Below are positions 13,645 to 64,000 of a stretch of 64,000 nt of DNA, piece after piece. Source of the stretch: Streptomyces sp. cg36 (lineage in GTDB: Bacteria; Actinomycetota; Actinomycetes; Streptomycetales; Streptomycetaceae); the NCBI RefSeq assembly GCF_041080675.1, contig NZ_CP163520.1:4030001-4094000 (forward strand), in the 5' to 3' direction. Position numbers and translations under genes: made by a program. Numbering within the stretch: the stretch's first letter is position 1; each line of letters starts with the position of its first letter. The notes under the pieces are model-generated. The model searched no databases. It saw only the letters and a list, made by a program, of their open reading frames with translations, and was not told the origin of the DNA.

Positions 13645-14262
13645 CTAGAGCGGTCGCAGGGCCGGCTCCTTCTGGACGGCTCCGAGCAGCCGGTCCAGCG
13701 CCAGCTCGACGTCCTCCTTCCAGGAGAGCGTCGTCCGCAGCTCCAGCCGCAGCCGCGGATAGCGGGGATGCGGCCGTACGGTCTTGAAGCCCACCGCGAG
13801 GAGATGGTCCGCGGGCAGCACACACGCGGGCTCGCGCCAGTTGGCGTCCCCGAACGCCTCGATGGCCTTGAAGCCCCGGCGCAGCAGGTCCTTCGCGACC
13901 GTCTGCACCATCACTCTCCCCAGCCCCTGCCCCTGATAGCCCGGCATGATCCAGGCCGTCATCAGCTGCACCGCGTCCGGAGAGACCGGGCTGGTGGGAA
14001 AAGCCGTGGAGCGCGGCACATAGGCCGGCGGGGCGTAGAGCACGAAACCCACCGGTACGTCGTCGACATAGACGACGCGGCCACATGAACCCCATTCGAG
14101 AAGGACGGCCGATATCCAGGCTTCCTTTTCGAGTTCGGGAGTACCGGCCTTTATCGCTGCCTCTCCGCTGACCGGATCAAGTTCCCAGAAGACACAGGCG
14201 CGGCAGCGCTTGGGAAGGTCCGGAAGGTTGTCCAGCGTGAGCGGTACAAGCCGACGCCCCAT
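13645..14262 (-). CDS. GNAT-family N-acetyltransferase
   Basis: A 205-residue protein with a GNAT core. It has strand/helix elements and the acetyl-CoA pyrophosphate-binding loop in TAWIMPGYQGQGLGRVMVQT (Q-x-x-G-x-G/A type). The N-terminus carries a CRACVFWELDP segment. The substrate is unknown. The start is ATG 14262; upstream in-frame sequence has no coding character. It is downstream of the parAB terminator on the same strand and converges on trxA. The same gene sits between parB and trxA in other Streptomyces origins. Confidence 0.82.
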   Translation of the reverse strand: MGRRLVPLTLDNLPDLPKRCRACVFWELDPVSGEAAIKAGTPELEKEAWISAVLLEWGSCGRVVYVDDVPVGFVLYAPPAYVPRSTAFPTSPVSPDAVQLMTAWIMPGYQGQGLGRVMVQTVAKDLLRRGFKAIEAFGDANWREPACVLPADHLLAVGFKTVRPHPRYPRLRLELRTTLSWKEDVELALDRLLGAVQKEPALRPL

Positions 14263-54941: not shown

Positions 54942-55024
54942 GGGCGAGTGGCGGAACGGCAGACGCGCTGGCTTCAGGTGCCAGTGTCCTTCGGGACGTG
55001 GGGGTTCAAATCCCCCCTCGCCCA
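54942..55024 (+). tRNA. tRNA-Leu (CAG)
   Basis: 83 bases. The acceptor stem is GGGCGAG/CTCGCCC, the anticodon loop TTCAGGT (anticodon CAG), with a long class II variable arm (TGTCCTTCGGGACG) and T-loop TTCAAAT. CCA is not encoded. Its 3' end faces the accessory region, so it is a candidate integration site. Confidence 0.96.
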
Positions 55025-55029
55025 CAGAG

Positions 55030-55101
55030 GAGCACCGACGAAAGTGCTCTGGTTGCACCGACGAAACGGTCGGCATCATGATCATGATGCCGACCGTTTC
55101 G
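55030..55101 (+). terminator. Tandem hairpins after tRNA-Leu, including a 40-bp perfect palindrome
   Basis: A small hairpin (GAGCAC 55030-55035 with GTGCTC 55044-55049) is followed by a perfect 40-bp palindrome (55062-55101, arm CGAAACGGTCGGCATCATGA). A 12-bp direct repeat GCACCGACGAAA occurs at 55032-55043 and 55055-55066. It is most simply the tRNA terminator, but it is unusually long. Confidence 0.7.
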
Positions 55102-55249: not shown

Positions 55250-57016
55250 TCAGGTCTCTTTGATGTGCCCTTTGGGTGCCCAGGAGCCGATGGGGAGGGT
55301 TTTGCGTCGGCGAGTGGGGCGTCGGCGGGGGCGGTTGCCGTGAAGGGCGACTGCGTCGGCCCAGCTGGCGAGTTTGCGGCGGTTGACGTGGGCGAGCTGG
55401 AAGGCGAGGAGCACGGTCTGGGCGGCGATGCCGCGAACGCGGCGGGTGCCTGCTGCTTCCATGCGTTCGTGCAGGGGGTCCTTGCCGAAGCCGTTGATGC
55501 CTTCGATGGCGTTACGGAGGCGGAAGTAGACGCGCTGCCATTCGTCGCTCCCGTATTGGAGGGCCTGCCATTGTGAGGCGCCGGCCTGGGGCGGGATGGT
55601 GACGCTGCGTTTTGTGCAGATGCGGTCTGGTTTGGTGGGGCTGGGGGCGGGGTCGACCAGGGGCAGGTGGATTCCGATGCCCATGGTGTGCGGCTTGAGG
55701 ATGCACTGGACGCGGCGGGCTTCGGCGGGGCACATCATCCGGCGGTGGCCTTCGTCGTCTGCGGCCTCTTTCGGCATGAGCAGGTAGGAGGCGCGCAGCC
55801 GGATGCGCTTGATCCAGGTGTCCTTGTCGATCCGCTTGGCGAGGAAGTCGGTGGTGGCGGTGACCAGGGGGGCGGGCATGGAGGGGCAGTACCAGGATCC
55901 TTCGACGAGCTGGGCCCCGGCGACGCTGCCCTGCACGCCGAGCTGGTCCTTGGTGTAGTCGTAGACGGGGGCGTAGCCCAGGGCGCGGATGGGCAGCTGG
56001 TAGACCTCCGCCTTCTGTCCGTTGTAGAGGCGGTCACCGGCGAGGTATCCGCGCGGGTAGCGGGGATCGACCTGGAGCAGGGCTTCGATGGCGACCTCGC
56101 CCGGGCGGCAGCTGGGCTTTTCCAGGGCGAAGGCGATGATCAGGGCGGGGACGGTGTCGGGGTCGGCGGAGCCGTCCGGGAGCGGGGCGCCGTCGGAGCT
56201 GGTGCCGCGGGCGACGATCAGGCTGGCGTCGAAGCCGTACAGCTTCTTCTTCACCTTCCGGCGCTTGGCCTTGCCCGTGTTCTTGCCACCCTCGCCTTTT
56301 TCTGGTTGCGGGGCGATTTCTTCGAGGGCCAGGGGGTCTTCGTGGCGGGCGCCTCGGACGTACCAGCCGGCGTCGGGGTCGGTGGAGGTGACCTCGCTGT
56401 CCGGGGCGAGGCCCTTGGCATAGGCGCCGACGACGGTGGCGTCCACCACGGTGTCACCTTCCCAGGTCTCTTCGAGCAGGGCATGGGCCGGCTGCAGGGA
56501 GGTACCGAGGATCTTGTTGGAGAAGTGGACGAGCAGGGAGCGCTTGTCGGCGAGGGCAGCTTCATCGGCTGCGGCCTGGAATTCGGCTGCTTCGGTGAGG
56601 GGGATGCGGTGGTTCTTGGGCAGGGGGGACGGGTCGATGGAGTCGACGATCTTGTGGAAGAGGCGTCGGACGACCGCGTAAAAGGCTTCGGAGCCTTGGT
56701 CGTTGTCGGCGTAGTGCGGGATGCCGAACCGGTCGCGCATGGCCTGGCTGATGCCGAAGGCCAGCAGGTCGGCAACGGCGGTCAGGATCACGGCTCCGGA
56801 GTGCAGGACGGAGCACAGGTACATGCCGAGCAGCAGCCCCTCGGCGCTGAGGTGGCGCGGGCGTCCGGTGCGCTGCTCGGCCAGGGCCGCAGCCTTGTCG
56901 ACCAGCCCCTCGGCACCCAGGGTCGACAGCAGGTCGATGACGTCCTGGTCGGGGACGGTGACGCGGCGGGCACGGAGCCTGGCGATGCGGTCGTGTCGTT
57001 CGGGACGGCTCCTCAT
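55250..57016 (-). CDS. DDE transposase, IS1182-like organisation
   Basis: A 588-residue transposase. The N-terminal helical DNA-binding region is followed by an RNase H-fold core with plausible catalytic residues D192 (TVVDATVVGAY), D328 (YLAGDRLYNGQ) and E505 (RNAIEGINGFGKD). The triad spacing is wide because of an insertion. A basic tail ends the protein. The ATG shares one base with the stop of the recombinase-like gene upstream (TGATG), so the pair is coupled. No obvious terminal inverted repeats flank it. The overall layout recalls IS1182/DDE_Tnp_1-type enzymes, but exact family placement needs a profile search. Confidence 0.72.
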   Translation of the reverse strand: MRSRPERHDRIARLRARRVTVPDQDVIDLLSTLGAEGLVDKAAALAEQRTGRPRHLSAEGLLLGMYLCSVLHSGAVILTAVADLLAFGISQAMRDRFGIPHYADNDQGSEAFYAVVRRLFHKIVDSIDPSPLPKNHRIPLTEAAEFQAAADEAALADKRSLLVHFSNKILGTSLQPAHALLEETWEGDTVVDATVVGAYAKGLAPDSEVTSTDPDAGWYVRGARHEDPLALEEIAPQPEKGEGGKNTGKAKRRKVKKKLYGFDASLIVARGTSSDGAPLPDGSADPDTVPALIIAFALEKPSCRPGEVAIEALLQVDPRYPRGYLAGDRLYNGQKAEVYQLPIRALGYAPVYDYTKDQLGVQGSVAGAQLVEGSWYCPSMPAPLVTATTDFLAKRIDKDTWIKRIRLRASYLLMPKEAADDEGHRRMMCPAEARRVQCILKPHTMGIGIHLPLVDPAPSPTKPDRICTKRSVTIPPQAGASQWQALQYGSDEWQRVYFRLRNAIEGINGFGKDPLHERMEAAGTRRVRGIAAQTVLLAFQLAHVNRRKLASWADAVALHGNRPRRRPTRRRKTLPIGSWAPKGHIKET

Positions 57017-57927
57017 CACAGCCCCTTCAGCGCGGCTGCGGCCTGCTCGGCGGTGAGGTTGCGGACGTACGGCATGATCCGGTCGATGGAGCGCAGGGTG
57101 GTCAGCCCGGCGGCGGCCATCAGGGTCGGCAGGTGCATGCGGGCTTCGATCGCATCCACGAGCCAGGTGGCCCGGGCCCGCCCCATCACCAGGGGCGGAG
57201 TGCCGGGCGACGTCCTGGTACGGGCGATGAAGTTGGTGACGGTGTTGGGATTGCGGGCGTAGCCGTTGGGGCGGAAGAGATAGCGGACCTGCCCGGGTTC
57301 GCCGGCCTGGGCCGCGGCTTCGGCGAGGGCCGGCGCCCAGGAGGTGCGGCACAGCACGAGACGGGCACGACGGCCGCGGACCGCGACGGCCGCTTCCCCG
57401 TTGGGCGCGACCCGTACGTCGTGGGCACGCAGCGGGATGATCTCCGGTGAATCCAGTGCGCAGCCGAGGCCGAGAGCGAGCAGGGTCAGACTGCCGTGGC
57501 GCAGTTCGGCGGTGGGCTGGAAGCGGGCGGATGCGAAGAGGCTGGACTGCTCGGCCGTGCTGTACGGCTTGGAGGAGTCCGAGCCGGCGTAGGCGGCCGG
57601 TTTTCCGGTGGCCAGGTCGGGGCCGAACAGAGCCCGGCGCAGGTGGCCCAGACGGCCCCGGTAGTTGCCGCGGGTGCCGTCGCTCAGGTGCAGGCAGCCG
57701 GTGGCCAGGAACCATTCGACCGCCTCCCGCGCCAGGACCTGTTCGGCTGCGGCCGGGCGTCCGCAGAGATCGGCGTGGGCGGTGGCGTAGGCGAGTGCGC
57801 CCATCCAGTCCCGTGCCTGCTTGGGGGTGTTGGGCTTGGCCCGGGTGACCGCGCGCCGGCAGCCGGGCCCGATGCGCTCCCATACGGGGGCGGGCAGTTC
57901 GGGCCGGTACTGCTCGATCGCATCCAT
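57016..57927 (-). CDS. Degenerate tyrosine-recombinase-like protein
   Basis: A 303-residue protein. The N-terminal helical part has a core-binding layout (about 55-105). The C-terminal part follows the tyrosine recombinase fold: LTLLALGLGCALDSPEIIPL in place of the usual TGLRxxEL, and MGRARATWLVDAI in place of HxLRH. The usual LGH reads AAAG, and a tyrosine (Y287, MPYV) lies near the expected nucleophile. The first catalytic arginine and both histidines appear missing, so strand exchange is doubtful. ATG with GGAG about ten bases upstream. It is divergent from the XRE gene and coupled to the transposase gene. It could instead be a DNA-binding accessory factor. Confidence 0.55.
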   Translation of the reverse strand: MDAIEQYRPELPAPVWERIGPGCRRAVTRAKPNTPKQARDWMGALAYATAHADLCGRPAAAEQVLAREAVEWFLATGCLHLSDGTRGNYRGRLGHLRRALFGPDLATGKPAAYAGSDSSKPYSTAEQSSLFASARFQPTAELRHGSLTLLALGLGCALDSPEIIPLRAHDVRVAPNGEAAVAVRGRRARLVLCRTSWAPALAEAAAQAGEPGQVRYLFRPNGYARNPNTVTNFIARTRTSPGTPPLVMGRARATWLVDAIEARMHLPTLMAAAGLTTLRSIDRIMPYVRNLTAEQAAAALKGL

Positions 57928-57963
57928 GACGACTCTCCACCAGGAATAGACCCCAGGAGGGGT

Positions 57964-57981
57964 GTTATTCCAATAACATTC
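57964..57981 (+). repeat. 18-bp inverted repeat, left copy (operator candidate)
   Basis: GTTATTCCAATAACATTC. It contains the imperfect palindrome GTTATT-CC-AATAAC and lies between the divergent recombinase-like and XRE genes. An identical copy in opposite orientation is at 62700-62717. Such an AT-rich word is striking in this GC-rich sequence. Confidence 0.9.
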
Positions 57982-58038
57982 AGTGGAGGTGGCGGCCGCT
58001 GTCATGCCGGGAGGTCCGTATGGGCGACACTCTTCGCT

Positions 58039-58350
58039 GTGCCACAAGGAGACAAGCGCCGTCGCAAGCCCGCCGAGTACCTGCTCGAGGGCGCTTGGCC
58101 GCACGCCGTGCTTGACGACCACCACGGGGCGCAGGTTGCCCAGGAAGTGGCCGCGCGCCTGCGGCGCGTCATCGAGGAGCACGGCTGGACGATCGTGGAG
58201 GTCTCCCGCTGGACGGGAGTGGACCGGATCACCATCACCCGGGTGCTGGCCGGCCAGGTCTGGTGCGACCTGCTGACGATCGCGACCCTGGAGAAGGAAC
58301 TCAATGTGGACCTGTGGCCCGGGCGGAACCCGGGCAATCCACCGGAGTGA
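58039..58350 (+). CDS. XRE-family helix-turn-helix regulator
   Basis: A 103-residue protein. The C-terminal helix-turn-helix reads VIEEHGWTIVEVSRWTGVDR, then ITITRVLAGQVWCDLLTIATLEKELNVDLW in overlapping helices, the layout of XRE/Cro regulators. The basic N-terminus is short (PQGDKRRRKPAEYLLEG). GTG 58039 is the only sensible in-frame start, although its ribosome site is weak (GGGAGG 20 bases upstream). It diverges from the recombinase-like gene and is the likely regulator of the locus through the palindrome at 57964. Confidence 0.72.
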   Translation: MPQGDKRRRKPAEYLLEGAWPHAVLDDHHGAQVAQEVAARLRRVIEEHGWTIVEVSRWTGVDRITITRVLAGQVWCDLLTIATLEKELNVDLWPGRNPGNPPE

Positions 58351-58559: not shown

Positions 58560-59243
58560 TCAGATGAACCTCCAGGTGCCGCGCGGCCGGTAGTAGGCAT
58601 GAATGTCGCCCTCGATGGTGATGCGCTCCAGGGCGCCGAGAATGGCAAGTTTGCGCAGCACCTCGCGCACGGAATGCAAGCCGGCCTCGTCCTCTTTCTC
58701 GATTCCCAGCAGCGCCCCGACGTCTACCACGCTCCACGTGGTGTGCGGCTTGGAACCGATGAGGTTCAGGACCTCGTGGCGCCGCGCTCCCCTCACCAGC
58801 ACCGGGTCCGGCTGCGCCGGTGCCGTGGCCACGGACGGGTTTTCTGGGGCGAAGCCGGCTGCGGACATGAGGGCTCCGTCCTGCCCTGGGGTCCCTTCCG
58901 GCTGGAGCATCGGCGTGGAAGCAGGCGTCCCGTCCCCATCCCGTGAGGGCGGCGGCTCCTCGTCGGGAACCACCCACAGGCGCGTCGGTTCTGTTGAGGA
59001 CTCCAGAAGACCGAGTTGCTCGGCGCCCTCGCGGACGGCGAGCCAGTCGGTGTGCGCGGCAGTGTTCCGGGTCATCAAGGCCAGGACTTCTTCACGCTTC
59101 TTCCGCATCTCCCCGAGCCGCTGCTCCAACTCGGGGATGGCCTGGTCATATCGCAGCAGAGAGGCTTTGCACCGGCGGTTCAGCAGGTCCATCTGGTCCG
59201 CAGGGTCCGCGAGGAGGCCCTCGGCCATCGACTCGTAGGCCAT
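58560..59243 (-). CDS. Coiled-coil and winged-helix protein
   Basis: A 227-residue protein. An N-terminal coiled coil (about 15-60, including RYDQAIPELEQRLGEMRKKR) and a disordered Pro/Gly/Ser-rich middle (about 90-150) precede a C-terminal winged-helix domain. That domain reads RRHEVLNLIGSKPHTTWSVV, then VREVLRKLAILGALERI and a beta-hairpin wing. It is a probable DNA-binding protein. It lies 271 bases downstream of the TniA-TniB fusion on the same strand, where a target-selection protein (TniQ-like) would sit in a Tn5053-type array, but it shows no TniQ similarity. The start could also be 59228. Confidence 0.6.
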   Translation of the reverse strand: MAYESMAEGLLADPADQMDLLNRRCKASLLRYDQAIPELEQRLGEMRKKREEVLALMTRNTAAHTDWLAVREGAEQLGLLESSTEPTRLWVVPDEEPPPSRDGDGTPASTPMLQPEGTPGQDGALMSAAGFAPENPSVATAPAQPDPVLVRGARRHEVLNLIGSKPHTTWSVVDVGALLGIEKEDEAGLHSVREVLRKLAILGALERITIEGDIHAYYRPRGTWRFI

Positions 59244-59514: not shown

Positions 59515-62118
59515 TCAGCAGGCCTGCGAGCCCCACAGGCCGGACAGGGCGTCGAACTCCTCACGGGTGAGGGACTCGGTGCCGTCGTGGATGGCGCGGA
59601 TCGCTCCGCTGCGCACCAGGTAGGCCAGCCGCGCGATACTGCCACCGGTGATCTTGTAGAGGTGGTCGGCCAGGTCCGGCAAAGTGCCGGCGGCATGGTG
59701 ACGCAGCCGCAACGCTGCCTCCGCCTCGGCGATCGTTGTATGCCAGGCCTGCTTGCTGGACCTGCCTGTGAGTCTCACCAGCATCAGGCGCCGCTGCTCC
59801 CACACGGAGAGGGCATCCGCCGCTCCGAGATCCATCCCGGCGAACACGAAGGTGACCGGCAGCCAGTCGTACAGCTCCCGCAGCACCCGGGCCGTGGAGG
59901 TGTCGGCGCCCGCCCGCAGGTGGCGGCCGTCGATCTCGTCCACCAGGATGAGGCCGGTGCCGCTGGCGACCAGGGCAGCACGCGCCTGCCACATGAGATC
60001 GGCGATAGTGACGCGCGAGGGGGCGGCGACGGATACCCCAGCGGTTCGGATGAGTTCGGTGAGCAGCATCCGCGGCGTGGCGCTTCGCGGAACAGAGACC
60101 TGGATCACGGGCCGGTGAGGTGATTCCCCCTGGCCGGTAGGGTGCAGGCAGTTGTACCAGCGGGCGGATTCGACCAGCACGGTCGTCTTGCCGGTGGCAG
60201 CGGCCCCGTGCACTAGAAGCCCGTGCCGGGCACCCGTGGAATGCTTGTTCATCAAGACCAGCTCCTGCACCCGAGCGGCCGCGGCGACAACTTCCCCGCT
60301 ATGGATGGGCAGTTGGGCGTGATAGGCCAGACGGGGCGCGTCCAGGGCGGCCGACGACGGCGCCTGCAGGGGTAGCCACGTGCGCGTGGTGGCGGCCTGC
60401 CGTGATGCCCGTACGGGTGTGGGCAACCGCCGTGTACTGGACGACGGGGAGGCGGAAGCCGTCTCCCCTCGCTGGAACCGGGCAAATTGCCTGTCGTAAA
60501 AGGACGGCGGGAGCGACGAGGGCCGCCTGCCGGTACACAACGGCACGGTCAGCCACCGCCCGTCCGGGGTGCCCAGCCATACCCGCTGGAAGTCGTAGGG
60601 GTCCCACCGGACCTCGGCCACGGCCCTGATGCCAGACGGAGGTGATGCCCAACTCTGCTGTAGCTCCGAGCTGTTGTAGATACAGCCGTGCAGGGTAATG
60701 CCCATCGGTGAAATCGCCCGGGTGGCTCGCGGGAGCAGATCTGCGAAGGCATCGGGGGACCAGGGAGTGGCTAGCCAGCCGGCCTGAGCGACGAGAGCGG
60801 TGTAGCGCTGGGCGGGCGTTTCTGCGCCTGGCACGGCGACCTCCTTGGCACGCGCGCCGAGCCGGGTGTGAGGCCAGACGCGAAGAACCCACTCGTCCAC
60901 CCGCGCCTGGACATCTTCCAACGCCATCCCCTCCCCGCTGCCCAGGAGGTCGGCGAGCTGGTCGGCCATGCACGCGATGAGCAGGTCGACGTGCTGCTCG
61001 CGGCCGGTGACGCGCGGCATGTGCTGCCGGATGCGCACCCCCAGTCGGGTACACGCCTGAGAGAAGCCCCGCAGACTGGCCGGCATACCGGCCACCCCAA
61101 TGGTCTGCGGGCGGATCAGCGGCGCCTCTCCCGGAGCCAGGGTGGCGTCCGGTAAACGGTGACCGCCAACCCACTGTGCCCGTACATCGGCGGGGACCGC
61201 CATACGGGCCAGCAGGGCCGCCCCGTCAAGGGTCCGCCTGTCCCTGTGGACCGCGGCGGTCAGAACGCAGGCGGAGTCGGCGTCCACGGCGATGACGATC
61301 TCGGGAAGGTCCTGGTGACCAAAAGCGCCCAAGGGCGAAGGAAGCCGCACCATGTCCAGCACGACGTATCGTCCCGGCCAGTGCGAGGACCGCTGGCCGG
61401 GATAGGTGAAGACCCTGCCCTCCAGCAACCCCGCGCCGACGGCCTCGGCATACAGCCGGTGGAACGCGGAACGAGACGGCAGCGCTACCCCTTCCACGCT
61501 GTGGCGCTGCTCCACCAGGGCAGCCACTCTGCGGCGCAGCCCCTCCACCGTGAATCGTCGGCGGTCCGGCAGTTCGGACACGGCCACCTGCAGGGCCTCC
61601 CGTACCCGGTAGTCCCAGCGCGCACCCACCTCTTCGCGTCGCCCAGCCCGCCCGTCCACCAGCCCGAAGATCCCCTCGGCCTGGTAACGCTGGCGCCGTC
61701 GGCGCAGCGAGCGCACCGACGCCCCATGGACCCCCTGGGCCAGCAGTTCCACGGCCTTGGCCGCCTCTCGCTCCCCCAAGGTGCACAGAGCGGGGTCGTA
61801 CTCCGGGCGCGGGCGAGTGTCAGACGGTGCACCAGGCGGCAGGCCGGTCATCACTTCGACGATGTGCCGCTGCCACCAGAGGGCCTGCTCCCTGGCCGCG
61901 GGCGACGGCCAGTCCTGTTCCACCGGAACCCGCGGATCTCCTTGATCCAGCACCTTGAAATCGGTACTGACCAGCACCGCGCCGACATCGGCTTGGACCT
62001 CGGCACCGAACGCGTCCACCAGCGTGAGCTGCCGCCCTGCCAGACCCGTAATCGTGAAGGCCCGCCCGTCGAGACGCACCCGGTCGCCGATGCCCAGCCG
62101 TTCAGGCCATGCCGTCAT
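59515..62118 (-). CDS. TniA/TnsB-like DDE protein fused to a TniB/TnsC-like AAA+ ATPase
   Basis: An 867-residue single polypeptide. Residues 1-240 are DNA-binding helical domains. About 245-395 is an RNase H-like integrase core with D255 in YVVLDMVRL. The usual second Asp motif (DNG/DHG) reads GVAGM (A343), and the usual KG-x-V-E-R reads REQHVDLL (D378), so the triad appears lost. About 465-525 is a Mu-transposase C-terminal barrel (GCIYNSSELQQ, VRWDPYDFQRVWLG). About 600-867 is a TniB-type AAA+ domain with Walker A HGAAATGKTT and Walker B LILVDEIDG, an arginine-rich EQRRLMLVRL and the C-terminal GGSIARLAYL. ATG 62118 has GAAGG upstream; the frame is open to 62196. TniA and TniB are normally separate proteins. 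Confidence 0.72.
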   Translation of the reverse strand: MTAWPERLGIGDRVRLDGRAFTITGLAGRQLTLVDAFGAEVQADVGAVLVSTDFKVLDQGDPRVPVEQDWPSPAAREQALWWQRHIVEVMTGLPPGAPSDTRPRPEYDPALCTLGEREAAKAVELLAQGVHGASVRSLRRRRQRYQAEGIFGLVDGRAGRREEVGARWDYRVREALQVAVSELPDRRRFTVEGLRRRVAALVEQRHSVEGVALPSRSAFHRLYAEAVGAGLLEGRVFTYPGQRSSHWPGRYVVLDMVRLPSPLGAFGHQDLPEIVIAVDADSACVLTAAVHRDRRTLDGAALLARMAVPADVRAQWVGGHRLPDATLAPGEAPLIRPQTIGVAGMPASLRGFSQACTRLGVRIRQHMPRVTGREQHVDLLIACMADQLADLLGSGEGMALEDVQARVDEWVLRVWPHTRLGARAKEVAVPGAETPAQRYTALVAQAGWLATPWSPDAFADLLPRATRAISPMGITLHGCIYNSSELQQSWASPPSGIRAVAEVRWDPYDFQRVWLGTPDGRWLTVPLCTGRRPSSLPPSFYDRQFARFQRGETASASPSSSTRRLPTPVRASRQAATTRTWLPLQAPSSAALDAPRLAYHAQLPIHSGEVVAAAARVQELVLMNKHSTGARHGLLVHGAAATGKTTVLVESARWYNCLHPTGQGESPHRPVIQVSVPRSATPRMLLTELIRTAGVSVAAPSRVTIADLMWQARAALVASGTGLILVDEIDGRHLRAGADTSTARVLRELYDWLPVTFVFAGMDLGAADALSVWEQRRLMLVRLTGRSSKQAWHTTIAEAEAALRLRHHAAGTLPDLADHLYKITGGSIARLAYLVRSGAIRAIHDGTESLTREEFDALSGLWGSQAC

Positions 62119-62227: not shown

Positions 62228-62695
62228 TCAGGGTGGAAACTCCTCCCAGTCGACCGAGAGAGGGCCGTCGGGCAGCCAGCCCTCCCAGTACCCCTGGATC
62301 ACCAGGGCCAGATCGGCTGGCCGGGTCGTCACTGCGGCGAGCTCGGCAAGACTCCACCACCGTGCGCCCTCCAAGAGGACTACCCGGTCAGCCGGACCCG
62401 GCAGGCTCCGGAACACCACCAAGATCATCCGAAGCTCGGCCCCGGCCAGGACGCATGATGACGACGGCGTCCAGATATGCCCGGTGAGCGACCCGAATTC
62501 CCACGCCGGCGGCCGTCGCCACCATGTCGCCACCGCCCGGGCAGCGGCATCCTCGTAGCTCTCGCCGCGTCGTACCCGGGTTTCCGGTGGGCGGCAGCCA
62601 CCTGCGGTGGAGCAGAGGAGCACAGTACGCAGGCTGCGGTCGAGAGGTAGTACCAGCGCGATCCGGCGCGGGGAGCGGCGGGGAGCAGGATTCAC
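62228..62695 (-). CDS. NUDIX-fold protein with degenerate Nudix box
   Basis: A 155-residue protein. The N-terminal strands (RIALVLPLDRSLRTVLLCST) and layout are those of NUDIX hydrolases. The Nudix box region reads RRGESYEDAAARAVATWW, where the catalytic REUxEExGU would be expected, so the metal-binding glutamates are mostly absent. It may bind a nucleotide or serve as a structural module rather than hydrolyse. The GTG start is five bases from the 18-bp palindrome on the minus strand. Its stop is 109 bases ahead of the TniA-TniB start on the same strand, so they probably form an operon. Confidence 0.6.
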   Translation of the reverse strand: MNPAPRRSPRRIALVLPLDRSLRTVLLCSTAGGCRPPETRVRRGESYEDAAARAVATWWRRPPAWEFGSLTGHIWTPSSSCVLAGAELRMILVVFRSLPGPADRVVLLEGARWWSLAELAAVTTRPADLALVIQGYWEGWLPDGPLSVDWEEFPP

Positions 62696-63022: not shown

Positions 63023-64000
63023 TCAGTCGGCGACCGCTGTGTGCTCCGTACCTCGCGCGGCCGGTACGGTCGGCTGCCTGACTTGCCGCTTGTTGCCCTT
63101 GAGGCCGAGTTCCTCCTTCTGCCGTTCGAAGTCGATGTCCGGAGTTCCGATGCGTCCCACGGCCCGGCTGTGTCCCGTCAACATCGCCTCTGCGAAGGGG
63201 CTGTCGAGCGTGGCGACGCGCCGCCACCCCCGTACCTCGTCTAGCGGGAGGGAGGAGACGTCCTCGAAGTCCACCAATAGATCCGGCACGTCGAGATACT
63301 TCGGCAGCACGCGGTAGCGGTTGTGGTCGGTTCGGAAGAGGTCGGAGACACGTTGCTTGCTGCCCCCATTGGCCTGCCATTCGGCGACGGGCGGCGACGT
63401 GTGGAGGATGTGGGCGCGCGCCATACGTACGAACTCGGCCTTGGCCCGGCGCTTCTTGCTCCCCTCCGCCGTGGACGGGTCCTCGTAGAGGTCGCAGGCG
63501 GGAGTGAGAACGAGTCCCCAGTCCCCGGTCGGCGAAACCAGGATGTCGGCGGCGGTGACGTGATGCGTGACAGGCGGCTTGAGGTAGACCCTCGCTGCGG
63601 AGGAGTGCCCCACGGTGTTCCCACCGTTCGTTGAGATCACGGAGTCGAGTTCACGAACCGCGTTCTCCTTCAGCCACGCGGCCAGCTGGTTGATCAGCAC
63701 GAGGGGGATCTCCTGCTGGTCCGACTCGGCCATCTCTTCCCAGTTCGGAGCGACGGTGTCCCGAAGGAAGGACCGCATGAAGCGGTCGGTGACCGCTCCG
63801 AGCTGACGCGTGAGTGAGGGAACGCCGGACTGGAGAGCTGCTCGCACAGCCTCGACAAGGTCGTCCAGGTGATTCTTCGTCACTACGTTCACGAGCGGCG
63901 GGCGCTTCAGACTCTCGACGCGCTGTGGGAAGCCAGTGCAGAAGATCACCGGGATCCAGCACTTCTGGGCGACACGTTCGTACATGTCCCGTCCACGCTC
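63023..64000 (-). CDS. Receiver-domain protein (N-terminus beyond window)
   Basis: 325 residues are visible; the frame stays open to the window edge with no start required. The first ~55 residues are the C-terminal half of a response-regulator receiver fold. They include the conserved Thr region (WIPVIFCTGFPQ) and Lys (VNVVTKNHLDDLVEAVRAAL). The phospho-acceptor Asp would lie outside the window. A helical segment and a domain containing ADILVSPTGDWGLVLTPACD follow, with a charged linker and a basic tail. There is no DNA-binding output domain. It resembles the receiver proteins paired with kinase-like ATPases in predicted bacterial conflict systems, but this is from memory only. Confidence 0.6.
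   Translation of the reverse strand, partial: ERGRDMYERVAQKCWIPVIFCTGFPQRVESLKRPPLVNVVTKNHLDDLVEAVRAALQSGVPSLTRQLGAVTDRFMRSFLRDTVAPNWEEMAESDQQEIPLVLINQLAAWLKENAVRELDSVISTNGGNTVGHSSAARVYLKPPVTHHVTAADILVSPTGDWGLVLTPACDLYEDPSTAEGSKKRRAKAEFVRMARAHILHTSPPVAEWQANGGSKQRVSDLFRTDHNRYRVLPKYLDVPDLLVDFEDVSSLPLDEVRGWRRVATLDSPFAEAMLTGHSRAVGRIGTPDIDFERQKEELGLKGNKRQVRQPTVPAARGTEHTAVAD

Follow-up and report, generated by a model that had tools for sequence, protein, structure and literature searches.

A TnsB-TnsC fusion protein with a degraded DDE triad in a tRNA-Leu-associated Streptomyces transposon, a probable accessory to an IS4/IS1182-like transposase

The window, a 64,000-nucleotide stretch of Streptomyces sp. 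cg36 (NCBI RefSeq assembly GCF_041080675.1, contig NZ_CP163520.1, positions 4,030,001 to 4,094,000 of the forward strand), codes on its minus strand for a fusion of TnsB (TniA) and TnsC (TniB) homologs (59515..62118). The gene lies inside a 22,923-bp transposon, which runs from window position 55029 to 13,951 bp beyond the window end; its ends are 15-bp inverted repeats (GGWGCACCGACGAAA), and the target sequence ACAGA (5 bp) is duplicated on either side. The tRNA-side repeat (GGAGCACCGACGAAA) occupies 55029..55043 and the far-end repeat (GGTGCACCGACGAAA, minus strand) L003:13937-13951; the two copies of the duplication are at 55024..55028 and L003:13952-13956 (G000:C1:4107952-4107956). The duplication can also be read as up to 7 bp, with CCACAGA repeating as well; inverted-repeat symmetry and the further copies of the element favour 5 bp. 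The target gene is a plus-strand tRNA-Leu(CAG) (54942..55025), past whose 3' end the element begins at a distance of 3 bp, and the same tRNA gene adjoins the transposition cassette in 11 further loci. A second copy of GCACCGACGAAA is found within the tRNA-side end (55055..55066); counted within 300 bp, there are two repeat copies at one element end and one at the other. A perfect 40-bp palindrome lies at 55062..55101; of 10 other loci tested, 9 (all but L009) likewise have a perfect palindrome, 34-40 bp long, whose arms vary in sequence from locus to locus.

The cassette comprises, in order, the fusion, a 227-aa protein (58560..59243, minus strand) with an N-terminus that appears by eye coiled-coil-like and a C-terminus that appears winged-helix-like, a small Xre-type helix-turn-helix regulator (58006..58350, plus strand, start uncertain; HTH_31, E = 5.7e-5, below the Pfam cut-off) divergent from the next gene, a 329-aa recombinase-like protein (57016..58005, minus strand) and a 588-aa DDE transposase, hereafter the partner (55250..57016, minus strand). 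Besides the window, 11 of 41 loci compared show this order, with L023 partly deleted, and the cassette or its remains accompany the fusion in all 18 fusion loci read. A Nudix-like gene (62228..62695, minus strand; match below the curated cut-off) might be a further cassette member, as all 11 other tRNA-Leu-type loci encode a relative upstream of the fusion, in those cases on the opposite strand. Beyond it lies the cargo, which begins with a receiver-like protein (63023..64000, minus strand, continuing past the window; weak match) and proceeds through an HATPase protein to an Mza defence system that extends to L003:13439. The relative in G061 carries a different cargo, namely a prolyl oligopeptidase and an ABC transporter.

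The fusion protein has 867 residues when read from an ATG preceded by a GAGGGG stretch, or 893 from an upstream TTG start. An earlier note, made from the letters of the DNA alone, had described one uninterrupted frame joining an integrase core, a Mu-C barrel and a complete AAA+ domain, and this architecture is borne out by Pfam matches to Mu-transpos_C (E = 5.3e-6; residues 461-523 of 867, 60550..60738), TniB (E = 1.7e-10) and AAA_22 (E = 1.4e-8), the TniB/AAA+ domain spanning residues 620-763 of 867 (59830..60261). The rve domain, also expected there, returned no match in the Pfam search, which additionally detected weak HTH-type matches at 157-187 (893-aa numbering). The integrase core is nevertheless real, because a profile of 26 fused proteins, the window's included, recovers the solved TnsAB structure over profile positions 329-579 (E = 1.8e-11), besides TnsC (E = 5.4e-18). 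Both ATPase motifs are intact, with GAAATGKT as Walker A and LILVDE as Walker B. Alignment with unfused TniA proteins places the integrase-like core at about residues 249-420 (60859..61374) and its acidic triad at D255 (61354-61356), A343 in the motif GVAGM (61090-61092) and D378 in QHVDLL (60985-60987), all on the minus strand. The triad is thus D-A-D, as had been suspected by eye, and in the sequence alignment no other acidic residue is seen by eye in register that could restore it. These substitutions suggest that the window fusion has lost strand transfer; they could reflect decay since the element landed.

The fusion is common to at least 27 proteins among the matches listed, those named being from Streptomyces; the homologs are 33-45% identical, far beyond chance, and mostly cover 94-100% of the query (P0030, at 29% identity, was excluded from this count). 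With at least 26 other fused proteins among these matches and an open frame in the window, a one-off frameshifted pseudogene is ruled out. Among 40 fused rows, 14 carry a broken triad, versus 1 of 32 unfused rows (L035, with D-H-E), in a count from which P0012, P0028 and L005 were left out; four of the 40 are loci whose protein duplicates, or almost duplicates, one already listed, and setting these aside gives 13 of 36. The two Asp positions hold Asp in 30 and 33 of the 40 rows, whereas the Glu is retained in 39, the window protein being the sole change. As a correction to the earlier note, variation across the family falls on the two Asp positions. On a tree (from which P0012, P0028, L018, L035, L005, L036 and L032 were left out) the intact or broken state of the triad changes at least eight times, six of these changes being forced by supported branches. 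In the ATPase, the Walker A lysine is kept in 39 of 40 fused rows and the Walker B Asp in 39 of 39. The Walker B Glu is replaced by Asp in the tRNA-Arg clade, P0010 and P0019, so ATPase activity may differ between copies. Selection on a broken-triad pair (L014/L017, G-D-E; dN/dS 0.315) is no weaker than on two D-D-E pairs (0.385 and 0.422). At four loci, L010, L015, L016 and L023, the fusion gene is in pieces; L016 is among the 40 rows and the other three lie outside them.

In the partner the catalytic residues are preserved: D194, D330, R503, E507 and K514 (A3 numbering) are invariant in 45 rows, and the D-D-E is kept in 95 of 96 full-length homologs among the 120 matches listed. Its layout, D(135)D(176)E with a Tyr/Phe ahead of an R(3)E(6)K block, is IS4/IS1182-like, although no family match is significant (NCBIfam IS1182, E = 0.13; best E = 0.066, far below cut-off), no Pfam DDE family was detected, a profile search against solved structures gave nothing useful, and hhalign found no significant match between the two DDE families of these elements. 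Across 121 genomes of the genus, the partner is found at E<=1e-30 in no more than 12, counting that of the window.

The 329-aa protein is a probable inactive tyrosine recombinase and a proposed target selector. Relatives bear source names such as "Tyr recombinase domain-containing", "Site-specific integrase" and "Integrase", and there are weak matches to Phage_int_SAM_1 in 4 of 6 tRNA-Arg-type rows (best E = 0.0097) and to Phage_integrase in 1 of 13 rows (E = 0.2). Profiles of these families gave no match to solved structures, and hhalign of the two families against each other and against a true integrase yielded nothing significant. By eye, none of the rows inspected shows the catalytic Arg, His and Tyr motifs, although the alignment to true recombinases is uncertain; a regular expression for active recombinases found none, and a relaxed pattern found one. 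In L008 a fusion of the tRNA-Leu clade is coupled to tRNA-Arg-type partners and located at a tRNA-Arg, which indicates that the insertion site tracks the partner pair rather than the fusion, and is consistent with a putative role of the recombinase-like protein in binding the target site.

Elements of this type are mobile, and are present or absent between relatives. Five further duplications were recovered (ACATC, ACTTG, ACAGG, ACCAC and TGAGT). A relative shared by two strains (ISL-94 and ISL-43) shows 7 differences in 7,984 bases (99.9% identity), versus 478 in 5,435 aligned bases (91%) of its flanks, and the duplications of its two copies differ, which together point to recent movement; the fusion in this element retains D-D-E. 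Another relative, 6.8 kb long and bounded by near-identical ends with TGAGT on both sides, contains the partner and recombinase-like genes and no match to the fusion or TniB. A search of 11 genomes with the exact end pattern recovered left ends in three (on the tRNA contig in G061 and G062, on a different one in G070), a left end in G071 was read by eye away from the tRNA contig, next to a stacked second right end (L129), and no left end was seen in the other seven; pattern matches on G061:C74 and G067:C15 (two) do not resemble element ends. Left ends of tRNA-Arg-type elements, and of a second tRNA-Leu subtype in G107, G108 and G134, were looked for and not found.

Taken together, these observations make it probable, in our judgment, that the fusion plays an accessory part in a transposon targeted to tRNA-Leu, in which the partner cuts, the recombinase-like protein targets and the fusion serves as an ATP-dependent adaptor. 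The IS4/IS1182-like partner would act on the GCACCGACGAAA ends, cutting and joining, while the recombinase-like protein, its catalytic residues apparently lost, would bind the tRNA-Leu end and set the insertion point, perhaps in the manner of TnsF. The fusion would combine a DNA-binding scaffold of TnsB descent with a TnsC-type ATPase, bridging element ends and target in an ATP-dependent manner and thereby licensing or directing insertion, or imposing immunity; in the window copy it would itself perform no chemistry. As the ATPase is tethered rather than recruited, TnsB-TnsC docking, and perhaps TniQ, might be dispensable. The earlier suggestion that the fusion depends in trans on the adjacent DDE transposase thus gains support from the shared cassette, the partner's near-invariant triad and the fusion-less bounded element.

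A less likely account, to which we still give some weight, is that the fusion is, or was until recently, the true transposase, as in Tn7 and Tn5053, with the broken-triad copies, including the window's, dying and the partner performing a side job such as second-strand cutting like that of TnsA. The D-D-E in 26 of 40 fused rows, the Glu in 39 of 40 and the D-D-E of the recent mover indeed suggest that some fusions may still be catalytic, 5-bp duplications are also made by TnsB-type elements, and the gene has been broken into pieces at four loci. Against this, the invariant triad is that of the partner, and the 6.8-kb element is bounded by near-identical repeats and a duplication with no fusion match. 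Moreover, the element ends read GGAGCACC/GGTGCACC, unlike the 5'-TG..CA-3' ends, with several TnsB sites, of TnsB-type elements. Of the five fusion-bearing elements whose duplications match, two no longer have an intact triad (the window, D-A-D, and L009, Y-D-E), though the mutations could postdate insertion.

The earlier note had also proposed a domesticated targeting or DNA-sensing machine; such a host ATPase serving the cell, for example as part of the neighbouring Mza system, is very improbable. The frame has stayed open despite its broken triad, the L014/L017 pair is under purifying selection and the Mza genes are adjacent; but the fusion lies within element ends and a duplication and is variably present between relatives, on which grounds we reject domestication. 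The scarcity of the partner in the genus, the different cargo of G061, the cassette or its remains at all 18 loci read and the absence of any PADLOC model matching the fusion at E<=0.01 also speak against it. Least credible is an island moved by the recombinase-like protein as an active integrase with both DDE proteins as passengers: tRNA 3' ends are classical tyrosine-integrase sites and some relatives bear integrase names, but the active-site motifs are absent by eye in the rows inspected, the inverted repeats are short, no att core is shared, and the two different duplications of the near-identical ISL-94/ISL-43 copies contradict it.

Among known systems, the closest sequence relatives of both halves of the fusion are Tn5053/Tn402-type TniA-TniB, which differ in being two genes with the triad kept in 31 of 32 rows; the unfused actinobacterial relatives (L019-L021, L025-L034, P0029 onward) are presumably such pairs. 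By the usual marks of Tn7-like elements, the window element has TnsB- and TnsC-type proteins, in one chain, and a 5-bp duplication; it lacks the TnsB D-D-E and 5'-TG..CA-3' ends, and TniQ/TnsD was not detected. Like CRISPR-associated transposons, of which type V-K sits beside tRNA-Leu, it is inserted next to this tRNA with TnsB and TnsC; unlike them it has a fused core, an extra DDE enzyme, no TniQ and no Cas gene among the proteins scanned. Faure et al. (2023, PMC10293859) mention a type I-D CyCAST tested on a tRNA-Leu target, call TniQ/TnsD ubiquitous in the Tn7 branch, and describe in Tn6022 an inactive tyrosine-recombinase-type selector, TnsF, that directs insertion to comM via TniQ. As described there, Tn6022 shares with the window element TnsB and TnsC homologs, a single chromosomal site and target duplications, together with such a selector, tested in Tn6022 and proposed here; the window element differs in that TnsB and TnsC are one protein, with the triad often lost in the family, in the unrelated DDE transposase of its cassette, and in that neither a TnsA domain in the element proteins scanned nor, genome-wide, a TniQ homolog was detected. 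The partner shares with the IS4 superfamily the D-D-E and the R(3)E(6)K block with its leading Tyr/Phe, but has spacers longer than the D(60-110)D(100-150)E given in the IS4 review (PMC2266710), which also lists 4-6 bp duplications in the related IS701, ISH3 and IS1634 families. Unlike IS4/IS1182 insertion sequences, it is embedded in a large targeted element.

Whether these features mark out targeted transposons of Actinomycetota as a lineage of their own, derived when an IS4-type DDE enzyme with an inactive-recombinase selector captured a Tn7 core whose TnsB and TnsC were then joined and became a non-catalytic adaptor driven by ATP, seems to us evenly balanced. If so, two transposase lineages would operate in one machine, with labour split between a dead and a live DDE site, and the Tn7 ATPase module would seemingly be uncoupled from its own chemistry. 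If the partner cuts, the TnsC-type control layer would be transferable onto unrelated transposases. The fusion also represents a natural covalent form of the TnsB-TnsC contact that is central to Tn7-type and CRISPR-associated transposition; our literature searches turned up no published example. The element is further an example, in Streptomyces, of large cargo being inserted next to a tRNA gene by a system that apparently has neither TniQ nor Cas proteins, and it illustrates how the Mza defence system travels. Across the whole window genome no TniQ match reached E<=0.001, and the element proteins scanned show none. Matches were found in 8 of 13 element-bearing genomes searched; in the genome of L008 two lie on contig C30, at coordinates that would fit L008's own contig.

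The frame at 59515-62118 on the minus strand is uninterrupted and codes for 867 aa; its ATG start has a plausible ribosome site ahead of it. This upholds the earlier note's proposal of a single real frame fusing TniA (TnsB) to TniB (TnsC). The Pfam models AAA_22, TniB and Mu-transpos_C all match it above their cut-offs, and a profile built from 26 fused proteins hits the solved TnsC (E 5.4e-18) and, over positions 329-579, the solved TnsAB (E 1.8e-11). The protein-search matches listed include 27 fused proteins, counting that of the window (P0001-P0027, with 79% of the query covered by P0012), and every one with a named source comes from Streptomyces. The window protein shares 33-45% identity with its fused relatives in a 26-row alignment. 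To judge from these sequences, the fusion is a family and not an accident. A genome scan yielded 41 loci, which we read as 11 of the tRNA-Leu type, 7 of the tRNA-Arg type and 23 unfused pairs or fragments. In the tree, midpoint-rooted for drawing only, the fused rows group together with support 100 in one clade, whose long branch lies next to unfused TniA. One Mycolicibacterium austroafricanum locus carries a second, distant unfused TniA-TniB pair (L031:19876-22941) beside the first.

Replacement of acidic residues in the integrase core, previously noticed by eye, is confirmed by alignment with unfused TniA, which places D255, A343 and D378 at the three positions. An intact D-D-E is found in 26 of 40 fused rows (23 of 36 once four repeated rows are removed), and the remaining 14 show YDE and GDE (three rows each) or DAD, SDE, EGE, DNE, TAE, DGE, DEE and EEE (one each). 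Unfused rows have D-D-E in 31 of 32 cases and D-H-E in the other. Triad losses correspond to at least eight label changes on the tree, six of them forced by supported branches. The triad Glu is present in 39/40 fused rows, with Asp in its place only in the window protein. As for the ATPase motifs, 39/40 fused rows keep the Walker A Lys, and all 39 with a residue at the position of the first Walker B Asp have Asp there; the Glu that follows is Asp in the tRNA-Arg clade, P0010 and P0019. For a pair of loci sharing G-D-E (L014 and L017), our own Nei-Gojobori script gives a dN/dS of 0.315 across the fusion gene and 0.435 in its integrase region, against 0.385 and 0.422 for two D-D-E control pairs. 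Hence purifying selection still acts on a fusion that has lost the first Asp, which argues that some parts of the family can do without catalysis by the fusion, without implying its absence in all members.

The window shares with 11 other loci a cassette in the order fusion, 227-aa-type protein, recombinase-like protein, DDE partner, 3' end of tRNA-Leu(CAG) and FHA-domain gene, part of it being deleted in L023. A Nudix-like gene (window 62228-62695) accompanies the fusion in 11/11 other tRNA-Leu-type loci, there upstream on the opposite strand. The window-side end, GGAGCACCGACGAAA at 55029, is preceded by ACAGA, and the far end, GGTGCACCGACGAAA, whose last base is position 13951 of the stretch directly past the window (L003), is followed by ACAGA, giving an element of 22,923 bp; the exact end pattern recovered left ends in 3/11 genomes. 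On the tRNA side, 11 of the 12 tRNA-Leu loci align with two occurrences of GCACCGACGAAA or a close variant, plus a palindrome, which shows perfect symmetry across 34-40 bp in the window and in 9/10 other loci tested and whose arms differ between loci. The arms of the window copy (55062-55101) and its counterparts at the equivalent place co-vary from locus to locus. This palindrome may be a binding site, or it may substitute for the terminator-like hairpin that belongs to the tRNA gene and that the element displaces by 23 kb, to about L003:13959-13997. Past the window, the cargo comprises an HATPase protein, a cytosine methyltransferase, a Vsr-type nuclease and genes matching MzaB/C/D/E. These Mza-type defence genes (L003:2752-13439; G000:C1:4096752-4107439) belong to the same element, the methyltransferase gene being antiparallel to the others.

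The element moves. A 22.4-kb copy is present in strains ISL-94 and ISL-43, with 7 differences over 7,984 aligned element bases and 478 over 5,435 aligned flank bases, and the target duplications differ (ACATC versus ACTTG), indicating separate insertions. The ISL-94 copy (L136/L137, G061:C72) has a different cargo, with a prolyl oligopeptidase, an ABC-2 transporter and further, unassigned genes, perhaps a peptide biosynthesis cluster. Further duplications are ACAGG in SM11 and ACCAC in S. cahuitamycinicus, each with the two ends on different contigs. Among 12 tRNA-Leu flanks from relatives, L093 is clearly unoccupied, its tRNA, terminator and histidine-kinase gene being together, and L099 resembles it by eye. 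L086 and L088 carry end-like palindrome remnants by tRNA-Leu, with element genes absent from the stretch examined; these are possible excision scars. Elements seem to stack next to the same tRNA, with nothing but the 5-bp duplication between the ends of adjoining elements (TGAGT twice in L138:10320-17230; ACCAC in L129).

In the mechanism that we infer, the DDE partner would do the cutting. The main ground for this assignment is the occurrence of the partner in an element and further loci lacking a fusion match. A 6.8-kb element from another genus of the order (L138:10363-17171, G035) has GGTGCACCGACGGAA as perfect repeats and is flanked on either side by TGAGT; besides the DDE partner it encodes a recombinase-like protein and a resolvase N-terminal domain, with no fusion, TniA or TniB match below E 0.9. 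Six further loci with the partner by tRNA-Leu (L139, L140, L158, L159, L160 and L161) yield no fusion, TniA or TniB match below E 0.05 within the fetched stretch, and L160 also has no recombinase-like match. The partner's D194, D330 and E507 are present in 13/13 rows, in 45/45 rows of a wider alignment, and in 95/96 full-length homologues among the 120 of 264 matches listed, the exception being a gap at one position. With R503 and K514, E507 makes up the kind of R(3)E(6)K block seen in IS4 transposases (PMC2266710); the partner's spacers are longer than those given there for IS4, and it has no significant match to family models. P0243 is 97% identical to the window's DDE partner and P0143 95% identical to its recombinase-like protein, possibly from an element without the window's fusion; no close relative of that fusion is among the matches listed (P0001 has one member, the next being at 44%).

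Like Tn7-like transposons, the element has a TnsB part, a TnsC part and a 5-bp duplication, but it shows neither TniQ nor TG..CA ends, and its TnsB triad is broken. At E<=0.001 the window's whole genome (3 contigs, completeness 100) yields no TniQ match. Matches occur in 8/13 element-bearing genomes and, as far as they could be placed, lie outside the contig that bears the element; the exceptions are two on contig C30 of the genome containing L008, with coordinates that would fit L008's own contig. Given these mixed criteria, we class the element as working with Tn7-type parts without being, strictly speaking, a Tn7-like transposon. The literature searched, which includes few subscription papers, yielded no natural TnsB-TnsC or TniA-TniB fusion, and nothing of this kind on Tn7-like elements with tyrosine recombinases or Streptomyces tRNA-Leu transposons. 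A new arrangement within a known class of mobile element is well supported.

As regards site choice, the tRNA-Arg-type loci carry recombinase-like and DDE proteins of their own, the latter with D199, D307 and E456 invariant in 6 rows. Six of the seven lie at the 5' side of tRNA-Arg(CCT), and no tRNA was found at L016. The L008 fusion falls within the tRNA-Leu clade (26 rows, support 99), in a four-member group that includes L024 and L044 (support 93), while its partners are of the tRNA-Arg type (50% and 47% identity), as is its insertion site; the site thus follows the partner pair. The recombinase-like protein would be a candidate target selector by analogy with TnsF, an inactive selector of tyrosine-recombinase type (PMC10293859). 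Its Pfam matches are weak and profile comparison gave nothing significant, while some of its relatives are named 'Tyr recombinase domain' or 'integrase' by their sources.
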